Shown here piece by piece: positions 16,473 to 20,487 of a DNA stretch of 33,080 nucleotides. The notes beneath the pieces were generated by a model. It made no database searches. It worked only from the letters and a program-made list of their open reading frames with translations, and was not told the DNA's origin. How positions within the stretch are numbered: the stretch's first letter is position 1; each line of letters opens with the position of its first letter. Source of the stretch: an uncultured Bacilli bacterium (GTDB lineage: Bacteria; Bacillota_I; Bacilli_A; RF39; UBA660); contig CALVXD010000010.1 in the NCBI GenBank assembly GCA_944368815.1, positions 1 through 33,080 on the forward strand. Reading direction: 5' to 3'. A program made the position numbers and the translations under genes.

Positions 16473-18233
16473 GTGTTAGGTAAGATAATTAGTGTTGATA
16501 ATAATAAAGTTATTGTAAAGTTAGACATAAACGTGTACGAAACAAATAATTTAATGGGTAAAAATGTTGTGTTCAAAGATGATAATACAACGGTGATTGG
16601 GGAAATAATATCTGTAAATAATAATGCTGTGACTGTATCTTTACAAGGAGAACTTAAAGATGATAAGTTTATATATGGAGATATTACTAAACCATCTTTT
16701 AATTCTAAGTGTAGTCTTATTACTAATAAAGAATTAGATATTATTCTTAATAATGATGCTGCTAATAACATGGTTATAGGTAAATCTTTTATATATAGTG
16801 ATTATGATATAAAGTTAGATATAAATACTTTCTTTTCTAATCATTTTGCTATATTAGGTAATACTGGATCTGGAAAAAGTTATAGTGTTGCTAAAATAAT
16901 TCAATCAATATTCTATGATTATAAATATTTACCATTTAGAACTAATATATTTTTGTTTGATGCTTATGGTGAATATCAACAAGCATTTAGCAAAATAGGG
17001 GAAACAAATGAAAATATTAACTATAAAGTATATACAACAGATTTAAAAAGTAAAAAATATGATTTATTACAAATACCTTTTTGGTTACTTACATTAGATG
17101 ATATATGTTTACTTTTAAATGTAGATAATCCTTTACAAATACCTATTATTGAAAAATCATTAAAACTAGTAAATTATTTTGCTAGAAATGATGAAGAAGC
17201 TATTAAACAAAAAAATGATATTATAGCAAGGTGCTTACTTGATATAATTTATAGTGGCTCTAAACCAATTGAAATAAGAAATAAAATAGTATCTACATTA
17301 ACTAAGTTTTATACAGATAATATTAACTTAGATTTAAAACTAACCAAAGGTGGATGGACTAGAACTTTAAAACAATGTATTTTTATTGAACCTTCTGGAA
17401 AACTCGCTGATATTGAAATAGTTATATCATATTTAGAAAGTTTAACTTCTAATAATTTTGAATTATCTATGCCTAATGGAGAAGTTAAATATACAATTAA
17501 AGATTTTTATGATGCTTTAGAGTTTGCAATAATTTCAGAAGGGGCAATTAATAGTAATAATATATTTGAATATAGTAACACACTTAAAATAAGGCTTAAT
17601 TCTATTATAAATAGTGATTATGTTAATTATTTTAACTTTAATGATTATATAAATAAAGAAAATTATATAAAATGGTTACTTACTACAAAAAGCGGAAAAA
17701 AAGCTCAAGTAATTAATTTTAATATTAATTATGTAGATGATAGACTTGCTAAAACTTTAGTAAAGATATATTCTAAGTTATTATTTGACTATATAACTAA
17801 ATTAAATAAAAGGGCATCATTTCCATTTCATATTATTTTAGAAGAAGCTCATCGTTATGTACAAAATGATAATGATATTAATATTTTAGGATACAATATA
17901 TTTGAAAGAATTACTAAAGAGGGTAGGAAGTATGGTATTCTTCTTGGTTTAATTTCTCAAAGGCCATCAGAAATTAGTCAAACTGCTTTATCACAATGCA
18001 GTAACTTCTTAATATTTAAAATGTTTCATCCAGCAGATTTAAATATTGTTAAAGATATAATTGCAAGTTCTAGTGATAGTTTAGGCGATAAATTAAAAAC
18101 ATTACATCCTGGTACTTGTATAATGTTTGGTAACGCTTTTAAAATGCCGATAATAGCAAAATTAGATATGCCAAATCCTGAACCACTAAGTAGTAACTGT
18201 AACATAAATGAAACATGGTATATTAGGAATTAA
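16473..18233 (+). CDS. HerA-like hexameric ATPase/helicase (DUF87)
   Basis: 586 aa. An N-terminal HAS-barrel-like beta region (1-80) precedes a FtsK/HerA ATPase: Walker A GNTGSGKS (129-136), a strand LFDAYGEYQ, Walker B FHIILEEAHRY and the HerA hallmark SQRPSEISQTALSQC. HerA proteins form hexameric DNA translocases; partners in known systems are NurA nuclease (archaea) or Sir2/DUF4297 effectors (bacterial defence). No NurA, Sir2 or nuclease gene is adjacent. The start is GTG, 6 bases after AGGTGA (16461-16466). A strong terminator follows, so it is not co-transcribed with the radical SAM gene. Role here unknown: repair or defence. Confidence 0.85.
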   Translation: MLGKIISVDNNKVIVKLDINVYETNNLMGKNVVFKDDNTTVIGEIISVNNNAVTVSLQGELKDDKFIYGDITKPSFNSKCSLITNKELDIILNNDAANNMVIGKSFIYSDYDIKLDINTFFSNHFAILGNTGSGKSYSVAKIIQSIFYDYKYLPFRTNIFLFDAYGEYQQAFSKIGETNENINYKVYTTDLKSKKYDLLQIPFWLLTLDDICLLLNVDNPLQIPIIEKSLKLVNYFARNDEEAIKQKNDIIARCLLDIIYSGSKPIEIRNKIVSTLTKFYTDNINLDLKLTKGGWTRTLKQCIFIEPSGKLADIEIVISYLESLTSNNFELSMPNGEVKYTIKDFYDALEFAIISEGAINSNNIFEYSNTLKIRLNSIINSDYVNYFNFNDYINKENYIKWLLTTKSGKKAQVINFNINYVDDRLAKTLVKIYSKLLFDYITKLNKRASFPFHIILEEAHRYVQNDNDINILGYNIFERITKEGRKYGILLGLISQRPSEISQTALSQCSNFLIFKMFHPADLNIVKDIIASSSDSLGDKLKTLHPGTCIMFGNAFKMPIIAKLDMPNPEPLSSNCNINETWYIRN

Positions 18234-18265
18234 AACATAATCTATATTTTAAGATTATGTTTTTT
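18234..18265 (+). terminator. Intrinsic terminator after the HerA-like gene
   Basis: Stem AACATAATCT (18234-18243) with AGATTATGTT (18252-18261), 8-nt loop, followed by T-run. Confidence 0.85.
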
Positions 18266-18284: not shown

Positions 18285-18300
18285 TGTTATAGGTATAACA
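18285..18300. promoter_or_regulatory. Perfect 16-bp palindrome, candidate operator
   Basis: TGTTATAGGTATAACA: two 7-bp arms around GG, ending one base before the -35 box of the radical SAM promoter. No U-tract follows, so it is not a terminator. Position and symmetry suggest binding of a dimeric regulator; which one is unknown. Confidence 0.45.
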
Positions 18301-18328
18301 TTTACTTTTATAAAAATTATGATAAAAT
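18301..18328 (+). promoter_or_regulatory. Promoter of the radical SAM-MazG gene
   Basis: TTTACT (18301-18306), 16-bp spacer, extended -10 TGaTAAAAT (TAAAAT at 18323-18328). The same TGaTAAAAT core recurs before mnmA, the HTH gene and rarA in this window. Confidence 0.6.
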
Positions 18329-18360
18329 ATATATTGCATGTAAATTAATAGGTGATATAT

Positions 18361-19995
18361 ATGAAAGAAGTAAAAATAGAATTAACTGAACAGTGTAATA
18401 GATGGTGCAAACATTGCTCTAGTAAAGCGAAAAACACTGATTATAAGTCATTAGATATTGATACAGTTAAAAGAATAATTGACGAATCAAAAGAAATAAA
18501 CGTTAAGAGTATTGTTTTAACAGGAGGAGAAGCAACGCTGTATCCTAAACTTGATGAAGTAATCAGTTATGCTAGTAATAACGGACTTGAAATAAAATTA
18601 TATTCAATGTGTGATCCTACTTTAGATAACATTCAATATTTAGGATATCTAAATACTATTGGTCTTAAAGAAATTATTTATTCTACAACTTATAATCTTA
18701 CTTTAGATGGAGTTGTAACACTAGATAGATTAAAGAAATTTTTTCCTTTATTATTAGATGAAACTAATATTAAATTAGGGTTACACCATGCGATTTTAAA
18801 AGATACTGTATATGATATAGATGATGTAATTAAACTATTTTTTAATTTAGATGATACTAAAACAACAAATTTGTCTTTTCTTAGATATGTTCCTCATGGA
18901 AGGGGTACTAAAGCCTTACTTTTAAACAAAGATGAACTTATATGGTTTAGAAATAAAATGATTGAATATAAAAAAATATATGGAGATAAAATTAGATTAG
19001 GTAGTCCTTGGAACTTTTTAGGAATTGAAAAAACAGAATGTAGTGCGGCTGAAAAATCATTAATAGTAGGTTTTGATGGTAACGTTTATCCATGTGATGC
19101 AATGAAATATTTTGACTACTTAGGTAGTGGTGGTAATATATATCAAAATTCTTTAAAAGAAATATATAATTCTAAATATTTTAAGGATATTAGAACATTT
19201 AAAAATTGTAGTAGTTTGGAATGTTTAGAGTGCTCTAATTATGAAATATGTAAAGGTGGATGTTTAGGTCAAAAGATGGTTGCATTTATCAGTCCTGATA
19301 CTTTTACATTTAGAAAATATGGAATATTAGCAAGAAGAACTATGAATAATTTTGATACTGAAGAAATTAAGAAAATGAATGGAGAAATGGGCATTGTTGG
19401 AGAAATTGGTGAACTTATAGATTCGTTTAAAAAATATAAAACCCATAATTTAAATGTTGATAGCAAAAATAAATTAAAAGAAAATTTAATTATTGAAACA
19501 GGAGATATTGTATGGTATTTAGCAGCGTCATTATCTAGTTATTATGATATTAATTTTGAAGACATAGGTAAGTATATTCAAAATAGTTCTAATAAAGAAC
19601 TAGATAGAAAAGTATTTGATACACCAATATTACTTCAAAGTATAAAAACAAAAGATCCTGAATGTTTATTAAAATCATCAATTAATGAAATAAATATTAG
19701 TATTTTAGATAATAATACTTGTGATTATAATTTTAATAATGAATGGAAAAAACTTGTTTATTATGCTTGTCAAATAATTTATTTAAGTGATAAAAACAAA
19801 TTAATTGAAACTATTGCTAACTTACTTATTACTTTATCGAGAATTGCTAATATTGAACTTGAAGTATCAATGAATGAAGTATTAAAAAGAAATATAGAAA
19901 AGCTAAATAATAGATATAAACAAGGATATGATGTCGAAGTTGCAAATAAGAGAATTAAACTACTTACTAATTATAAAGGTAGCGAAGCAAATTAA
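18361..19995 (+). CDS. Radical SAM/SPASM-like protein fused to a MazG-type nucleotide pyrophosphohydrolase
   Basis: 544 aa. Residues 1-305 are a radical SAM enzyme: the cluster motif CNRWCKHC (Cys12, 16, 19), the GGE strand (VLTGGEATL) and a SPASM-like cysteine set (Cys227, 245, 283, 288, 291, 297, 301) with the typical DGNVYPC and CLECSNYEICKGGC arrangement, suggesting auxiliary iron-sulfur cluster binding. Residues ~335-544 are MazG-like: ExxE at Glu348/Glu351 and ExxD at Glu379/Asp382, the metal-binding pattern of all-alpha NTP pyrophosphohydrolases, ending in NIEKLNNRYKQGYD, a normal MazG tail. About 85 residues are inserted, and 470-520 looks like a second, degenerate MazG half. ATG chosen after AGGTGA. 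Substrates unknown: a modified (d)NTP or a peptide are both possible. Confidence 0.8.
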   Translation: MKEVKIELTEQCNRWCKHCSSKAKNTDYKSLDIDTVKRIIDESKEINVKSIVLTGGEATLYPKLDEVISYASNNGLEIKLYSMCDPTLDNIQYLGYLNTIGLKEIIYSTTYNLTLDGVVTLDRLKKFFPLLLDETNIKLGLHHAILKDTVYDIDDVIKLFFNLDDTKTTNLSFLRYVPHGRGTKALLLNKDELIWFRNKMIEYKKIYGDKIRLGSPWNFLGIEKTECSAAEKSLIVGFDGNVYPCDAMKYFDYLGSGGNIYQNSLKEIYNSKYFKDIRTFKNCSSLECLECSNYEICKGGCLGQKMVAFISPDTFTFRKYGILARRTMNNFDTEEIKKMNGEMGIVGEIGELIDSFKKYKTHNLNVDSKNKLKENLIIETGDIVWYLAASLSSYYDINFEDIGKYIQNSSNKELDRKVFDTPILLQSIKTKDPECLLKSSINEINISILDNNTCDYNFNNEWKKLVYYACQIIYLSDKNKLIETIANLLITLSRIANIELEVSMNEVLKRNIEKLNNRYKQGYDVEVANKRIKLLTNYKGSEAN

Positions 19996-20008
19996 AACAG
20001 GAGGAAAC

Positions 20009-20455
20009 ATGAAAACTATAGATAAAGATGAACATAAAGTAGAATTTTATAATCCTAATAATATAGTAATTGCTAAATATAAAAAATATGATCAAGAAGA
20101 ATTTGACTTGTTTGTTATGTCTAAGTTTTTATATATTAATAATGGCAAATTAGAATTTGGAAAATCTTTTAGAAACATAAATATTTATCAATTAATTGGT
20201 TTATTAAATGCAAATGATGATAATTGTTGTTATATGGATACAGTTAATTATGGAGATTATTTTTCAAATATTAATATTGAATATTATATATCACTAATAG
20301 AAGTATATAAACTTATGGGAAAAACAGAAATATTAAATAAAGAATACGTAAATAACGAAGATATGAAAATAGCATTAGAATATATAATAAATAATTATAA
20401 CGAAAAAAGAATAATGCAACAAATGGAACCAAAACAAAGAATTAGAAGAAAGTAA
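20009..20455 (+). CDS. Unrecognised 148-aa protein, partner of the radical SAM-MazG gene
   Basis: 148 aa. It starts MKTIDKDEHKVEFYNPNNIV and has no signal peptide or membrane segment; it looks like a small mixed alpha/beta cytosolic protein with a basic C-terminus (PKQRIRRK). Aromatic and Asn residues are frequent, and there is a Cys-Cys pair (DDNCCYMDTV). It does not match a family I know. The gene begins 13 bases after the radical SAM-MazG stop with a strong GGAGGAAAC ribosome site and ends in a terminator, so the two form an operon. It may be a substrate, chaperone or accessory subunit of the fusion enzyme. Confidence 0.75.
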   Translation: MKTIDKDEHKVEFYNPNNIVIAKYKKYDQEEFDLFVMSKFLYINNGKLEFGKSFRNINIYQLIGLLNANDDNCCYMDTVNYGDYFSNINIEYYISLIEVYKLMGKTEILNKEYVNNEDMKIALEYIINNYNEKRIMQQMEPKQRIRRK

Positions 20456-20487
20456 AGTTTATATGTAAATTACACTTTCTTTTTTTT
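20447..20487 (+). terminator. Intrinsic terminator of the radical SAM-MazG operon
   Basis: Outer stem AGAAAGT (20447-20453) with ACTTTCT (20474-20480), an inner GTTTA/TAAAT helix, then a run of seven or more T. Confidence 0.75.

Follow-up and report, generated by a model that had tools for sequence, protein, structure and literature searches.

A radical SAM-SPASM protein of uncultured Bacilli with a MazG half predicted inside its SPASM domain and a possible role in nucleotide processing

The locus and its borders

The window, by which we mean the whole stretch of 33,080 nucleotides that was analysed, comes from an uncultured Bacilli bacterium of gut type with a genome of 1.27 Mb over 71 contigs. 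It contains a gene that encodes, in a single uninterrupted frame with an ATG start, a protein of 544 residues (Table 1). Pfam matches within this protein are to Radical_SAM (8e-11), SPASM (1.2e-9) and MazG (4e-7, split over two stretches). The protein is a genuine fusion, made up of a radical SAM core, an entire SPASM domain and a MazG part in two halves; the open frame and the Pfam matches bear out a sequence-only reading of this DNA, which had described one frame of this length fusing radical SAM to MazG.

The fusion gene is placed between herA and nusB. In two congeners without the fusion, herA is directly beside nusB and the site is empty. Thus, the fusion gene is an accessory insertion, and HerA, the product of a resident gene, was rejected as its partner. 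The HerA-type ATPase itself (16473-18233; PADLOC HerA, E 1e-113) has no nuclease partner adjoining it, and its gene, which is next to nusB in congeners, is missing from the corresponding place in locus L028.

The sequence-only reading had also given the unit a promoter, a palindrome and a terminator of its own. The terminator stands, in the form of a terminator-like hairpin after the downstream open reading frame (ORF). The palindrome near 18285-18300 folds as shuffled sequences do (z -0.76), and promoter-like sites occur at chance level (23 found versus 23.9 expected in shuffles). The downstream ORF was correctly described as starting 13 bases after the fusion gene and belonging to no known family. 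Its suggested role as a partner or radical SAM substrate fared less well: among five fusion-bearing congeners two have an intact ORF, one has a broken copy and two have none; it is absent beside the fusions of other genera; and the two intact copies are weakly constrained (dN 0.26, dS 0.32 between them). Since the ORF is not conserved, neither role is supported; it was rejected as a partner and is probably not part of the fusion's function. In addition, a scan of ORFs of 60 aa or more found no conserved small substrate gene beside the fusion.

Table 1. Features of the fusion locus, in window coordinates
Feature	Position	Strand	Basis
AT-rich hairpin and T-run, probable terminator of upstream herA	18232..18263	+	12-nt perfect arms; RNA fold -10.9 kcal/mol, z -5.7
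rSAM-SPASM-MazG1-SPASM end-MazG2 fusion protein, 544 aa	18361..19995	+	open frame; Pfam matches; 15 distinct full-length homologous loci
CX3CX2C radical SAM cluster motif (Cys12, Cys16, Cys19)	18394..18417	+	invariant in 29/29 aligned family members
SPASM cysteines 1 to 6 (C227-x12-G-x4-C245, C288-x2-C291-x5-C297-x3-C301)	19039..19263	+	Pfam SPASM 1.2e-9; (nearly) invariant
MazG half 1 (residues 314-410), catalytically intact by motif, predicted insertion in SPASM	19300..19590	+	sequence motifs; structural alignment; homology
Metal ligands Glu348xxGlu351	19402..19413	+	invariant in 15/15 fusions
Metal ligands Glu379xxAsp382	19495..19506	+	invariant in 15/15 fusions
DPEC, Cys435 as seventh SPASM cysteine, predicted Aux II ligand	19654..19665	+	DPxC conservation; PqqE alignment; structural alignments
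MazG half 2 (about residues 458-530), acidic ligands lost, C-terminal NIxKLxxRYxxG kept	19732..19950	+	Pfam; alignment; dN/dS about 0.17
148-aa ORF, no known family, non-conserved	20009..20455	+	Pfam; congener comparison; dN/dS
Hairpin (20446-20481) and T-run, probable unit terminator	20446..20487	+	AT-rich; z -2.7

An interleaved SPASM domain and a double MazG tail

The protein belongs to the radical SAM superfamily, with its CX3CX2C motif lying within a partial TIM barrel. The SPASM motif, defined as CX9-15GX4C-Xn-CX2CX5CX3C-Xn-C (PMC5715301), is represented in full by C227, C245, C288, C291, C297, C301 and C435. The last of these lies in a DPxC sequence that is invariant in 29 of 29 aligned proteins, fusions and stand-alone radical SAM relatives alike, and forms the extreme C-terminus of the stand-alone relatives. 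In the alignment with PqqE, Cys435 falls on the cysteine of a DPxC sequence there, which we take to be Cys341. PqqE Cys341 is a proposed ligand of Aux II (PMC5715301).

The full-length AF2 model of the fusion has a pLDDT of 84.5 and a pTM of 0.62; the alignments behind the AF2 models are shallow (29 and 15 sequences). Against SuiB, CteB, anSME, PqqE and ChlB the model aligns from residue 1 to residues 437-443 (Z 23-25; SPASM structures in general, about 20-25). For the SPASM part, SuiB, anSME, PqqE and ChlB match best in structure. Because these alignments reach residues 437-443, the DPEC segment is predicted to complete the SPASM fold, with residues 314-410 as an insertion. Also, Cys435 is located past MazG half 1, so this half is predicted to sit inside the SPASM domain, spliced between cysteines 6 and 7. 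The sequence-only reading had joined seven SPASM-like cysteines to a MazG metal motif; a SPASM domain is indeed present, but its canonical seventh cysteine lies beyond MazG half 1, and the simple order of SPASM followed by MazG does not hold.

Assignment to characterized radical SAM families is not supported by profile searches. The viperin profile scores 34.5 bits against a cut-off of 180 and covers residues 7-80 only; a viperin identity was rejected because nothing matches past the generic N-terminal radical SAM part, which also accounts for the PADLOC matches of the fusion, all to viperin models. The best NCBIfam matches are mostly peptide maturases, every one well under its cut-off, and the equivalog cut-off for SPASM peptide maturases (PqqE, MftC, sactisynthases) is missed (best 67.7 bits versus 265).

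Pfam MazG matches the tails of all 15 fusions. The ExxE and ExxD metal ligands of MazG and all-alpha NTP pyrophosphohydrolases, which had been picked out from the sequence, are kept in half 1 of every fusion and lost from half 2. The related suggestion of a duplicated MazG with a dead second copy is likewise upheld, since half 2 has no ligands and a stand-alone viral double MazG exists. This free form is encoded by two viral contigs (L150, L224), matches the fusion tail across both halves (hhalign 98%) and has no DPxC segment. The first half is also related to the N-domain of a plasmid MazG/MazG_C protein (32% over 88 residues, E 6e-10). With the MazG tail by itself as query, a sequence search of the PDB gave only chance-level matches. 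In one diverged Bacilli fusion (L039, 3335-4327) an insertion of about 75 residues separates the two helices that carry the ligands of MazG half 1.

Modelled alone, the tail has a pLDDT of 83.5. A structure search with this model has dimeric dUTPases or their phage relatives in every one of its top 16 rows (Z 11, up to 173 residues); HisE, MazG (iMazG) and dCTPase rows come next. These matches place the MazG residues in a MazG-type fold, as the earlier reading had anticipated, a Z of 11 being modest for a helical model. The dimeric dUTPase profile (PF08761, dUTPase_2) has no Pfam match in the tail and an hhalign probability of 0.6%. Judged by sequence, the tail is MazG rather than dUTPase_2.

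Distribution and gene neighbourhoods

A pattern scan over 84,980 species genomes found 52 loci. They fall into two clearly separate groups, the full-length fusions and the stand-alone radical SAM relatives, which lack MazG. The fusions comprise 15 distinct full-length loci, the window included, from uncultured Bacilli and many assemblies, and all keep both active-site motifs. Five of the seven genomes of the genus (the window's own counted) contain it, with 83-93% identity to the window protein, and one genome from a different genus does so at 43% identity. A phylum-wide sample of 392 genomes yielded zero additional family members. In the tree, the fusions form one clade (support 92/90) with the Bacilli stand-alone proteins as its sister (99/98), and the Moorella and Deltaproteobacterial proteins fall outside. 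The dN/dS values of the fusion parts are 0.12 (radical SAM), 0.15 (MazG1) and 0.17 (MazG2), with 0.54 in the linker; by these ratios all folded parts are under purifying selection. An assembly error was rejected, since the 15 distinct loci come from many assemblies and are under purifying selection.

In one genome (G310; L095, 1165-2151) only a remnant is left, in which the radical SAM motif and core, the SPASM domain and DPxC are gone and the ligands of the double MazG are intact. MazG can therefore persist alone, and the pattern of loss fits the splice model. Pattern searches of IMG/VR found no relative of the full fusion protein, and phage records gave only weak, separate radical SAM or MazG matches; a phage origin of the whole protein was rejected on these grounds. 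A plasmid search with the full fusion as query gave only partial radical SAM matches.

The sister-clade protein, which contains no MazG, has a nearly constant neighbour. HMUDK_hel (PF18723, E about 1e-107), of the 5-hmdU DNA kinase type, is the next gene in 29 of the 30 Bacilli stand-alone loci with sufficient downstream sequence (two of the 30 are probably one genome, and one has a frameshifted radical SAM gene), at a distance within 60 bases in 28 loci and of 191 bases in one. Every sampled genome that encodes the stand-alone Bacilli protein contains PF18723, and all 16 genome entries with the fusion or its remnant (at least one entry is a duplicate) lack it; the fusion is thus not a member of an HMUDK_hel cassette. 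Because the fusions are a single clade, this exclusion does not equal many independent events, and the swap of partners may have been a single historical event. Of 21 genomes, 13 have HMUDK_hel but no detected radical SAM gene, and none of eleven such loci inspected adjoins one. The genes next to the sister-clade proteins agree with the earlier suggestion that a nucleotide is the substrate of both halves.

More distant relatives are found in similar company. The Deltaproteobacterial members lie in cassettes of the order ImmA, thymidylate-synthase-like, HMUDK_hel and radical SAM; in one of these loci (L073, 8232-9953) a thymidylate kinase is fused to HMUDK_hel between the thymidylate-synthase-like and radical SAM genes. 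The Moorella locus consists of a thymidylate-synthase-like gene, the radical SAM gene and, immediately 3' of it (L071, 10987-12162), a gene for a uracil-DNA glycosylase fused to a Panacea (SocA-like) domain. On a Parabacteroides plasmid (L134, 4862-9504) the operon-like order is ThsB-type TIR, Nmad2, HMUDK_hel, radical SAM and a 521-aa protein without a Pfam match. Other plasmids have MazG beside HMUDK_hel: those of Allocoleopsis, Nostoc and Sinorhizobium show the order XRE, ImmA, thymidylate synthase, HMUDK_hel, MazG/MazG_C, and that of Gloeothece the order CBASS phospholipase, HMUDK_hel, MazG/MazG_C, TIR, Nmad2 (the check for MazG_C covered the proteins of Allocoleopsis and Gloeothece). Radical SAM and MazG thus alternate in one place beside HMUDK_hel, and the window protein unites these two enzymes in one chain.

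Several other genes recur in the neighbourhoods. An SIS-like gene lies near fusion and stand-alone radical SAM genes (L036, 8363-9930; L059, 6429-8118; L045, 11954-12979), accompanied in L036 and L059 by a HAM1-like NTPase gene. A tRNA-thiolase-like gene with an SGGKDS motif (L037, 3825-4652; L077, 1976-2821; L117, 2447-3286) is found just 5' of two fusion genes and one lone HMUDK_hel gene. Also, annotated dCTP deaminase genes adjoin HMUDK_hel on rhizobial plasmids (L136, 874-1659; L146, 3096-3914).

Possible function and relation to known systems

No conserved neighbour is common to fusion loci across genera, and the case for a nucleotide context therefore draws on the sister clade and on distant relatives. 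Those relatives adjoin genes for DNA base modification and phage defence, and the fusion therefore probably makes or destroys an unusual nucleotide; by this analogy, the relatives point to a biological role in modifying nucleotides or in conflict with phages. A radical SAM core abstracts hydrogen from its substrate, and MazG-type sites convert an NTP to NMP and pyrophosphate. Our leading explanation, which could equally well prove right or wrong, is that the protein is a self-contained nucleotide-processing enzyme whose radical SAM half modifies, and whose MazG half cleaves, one nucleotide family, possibly in conflict with phages. The three-cluster radical SAM/SPASM half would modify a nucleotide. 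A pyrimidine deoxynucleotide, or something closely derived from one, is the likeliest candidate, since the relatives have thymidylate synthase, thymidylate kinase and HMUDK_hel genes clustered with them. The phage-type double MazG would cleave the matching triphosphate to the monophosphate and pyrophosphate. In the version that we prefer, the two sites share one nucleotide family, and the order of the reactions may be either of two: MazG may feed an NMP to the radical SAM site, as MazZ, a MazG-type enzyme, supplies the base-modifying enzyme PurZ in phage S-2L (PMC8342488), or it may keep the modified triphosphate out of the pool. A narrower version, which we offer tentatively and with some doubt, is that one chain couples the making and cleaving of an unusual deoxynucleotide, with the NTPase anchored on the auxiliary Fe-S domain, and so acts as a one-gene equivalent of an HMUDK_hel-type modification or antiviral cassette.

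The SPASM enzymes of known function act mostly on peptides, and the closest structural matches of the model are peptide enzymes too; both points count against a nucleotide substrate. It is conceivable, if unlikely, that a house-cleaning MazG NTPase shares a chain with a radical SAM/SPASM enzyme that modifies peptides or proteins, in which case the activities would be unrelated and their fusion would serve only to co-regulate them. The structural neighbours of the SPASM part (SuiB, anSME, PqqE, ChlB), the NCBIfam matches to peptide maturases, far under cut-off as they are, and the MazG ligands that outlast the radical SAM motif, SPASM and DPxC in G310 all agree with such an arrangement. Against it are the lack of a conserved precursor-like ORF next to the fusion, the 148-aa ORF not being conserved, and the pairing of the sister proteins with nucleotide enzymes.

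An anti-phage system, in which radical SAM makes or MazG destroys a nucleotide and so poisons phage DNA synthesis or removes modified phage nucleotides, overlaps partly with our leading explanation and is, as a separate account, also improbable. Relatives adjoin ThsB-type TIR, Nmad2, CBASS phospholipase and XRE/ImmA genes, and the patchy occurrence within the genus, with an empty herA-nusB site, is of the kind expected on this account. Moreover, a 2026 study counts thymidylate synthase and 5-hydroxymethyluracil kinase domains among those of experimentally validated defence systems, and predicts MazG and aGPT-Pplase as defence domains (PMC13092281). However, the fusion lies outside any recognisable defence island, HerA is resident even without it, and PADLOC sees only the generic radical SAM part through its viperin models.

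That the tail is a housekeeping dUTPase module replacing a missing host enzyme is very unlikely: dimeric dUTPases head its structural matches (Z 11), but the host already has a PF00692 (dUTPase-family) gene, and hhalign against dUTPase_2 and Pfam, which gives MazG only, both disfavour such a replacement. Modification of the 148-aa protein by the radical SAM half is scarcely credible, as the short gap, common strand and shared terminator-like hairpin downstream are outweighed by its loss or breakage beside intact fusions and by a dN near dS.

The insertion of MazG in SPASM offers a clear handle, since one purified protein can reveal whether a modified nucleotide exists. If one does, radical chemistry would be linked to the nucleotide-based conflict systems, which genome context had predicted and which were validated in part in 2026. 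The literature searched describes no radical SAM family linked to DNA-base-modification genes in ordinary bacterial chromosomes. No paper there joins radical SAM, MazG and SPASM, with an earlier mention among papers on conflict systems or base hypermodification being possible, and nothing relevant links radical SAM to thymine pyrophosphorylase, hypermodification or defence. The sequence-only reading knew of no described system with this layout; the literature searched agrees as to the combination of domains, but the functional neighbourhood has been described in part (PMC13092281). Those defence systems use thymidylate synthase, dNMP kinase and 5-hmdU kinase, the same domain families that partner the fusion's relatives; they differ in that the text names no radical SAM and the fusion is not among the systems tested there.

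With the radical SAM/SPASM enzymes PqqE, anSME, SuiB and MftC the fusion shares CX3CX2C, a TIM-barrel core, a seven-cysteine SPASM domain and the PqqE-type C-terminal DPxC. Unlike them, it has a MazG half predicted between SPASM cysteines 6 and 7, falls below the NCBIfam equivalog cut-offs and has a sister clade that pairs with a DNA-base-modification protein. Its MazG1 is homologous to the N-domain of the plasmid MazG/MazG_C proteins, which lie beside HMUDK_hel and thymidylate synthase, with identical ligands; unlike these, the fusion has no MazG_C, carries a dead second MazG half and a fused radical SAM enzyme, and belongs to a genome without HMUDK_hel. The viral double MazG resembles the tail in its active-type first half and ligand-less second half, but is unfused and has no DPxC segment between the halves. 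The dimeric dUTPases of Campylobacter, trypanosomes and staphylococcal phage, which are thought to descend from a MazG duplication (PMC2954211), share the single-chain, two-half, all-alpha NTPase architecture, but the fusion tail has no match to their sequence profile. Finally, in the MazZ-PurZ pair of phage S-2L a MazG-type enzyme makes the NMP for a base-modifying enzyme, as we propose for the fusion; the phage pair differs in acting on a purine, by non-radical chemistry and from separate genes (PMC8342488).
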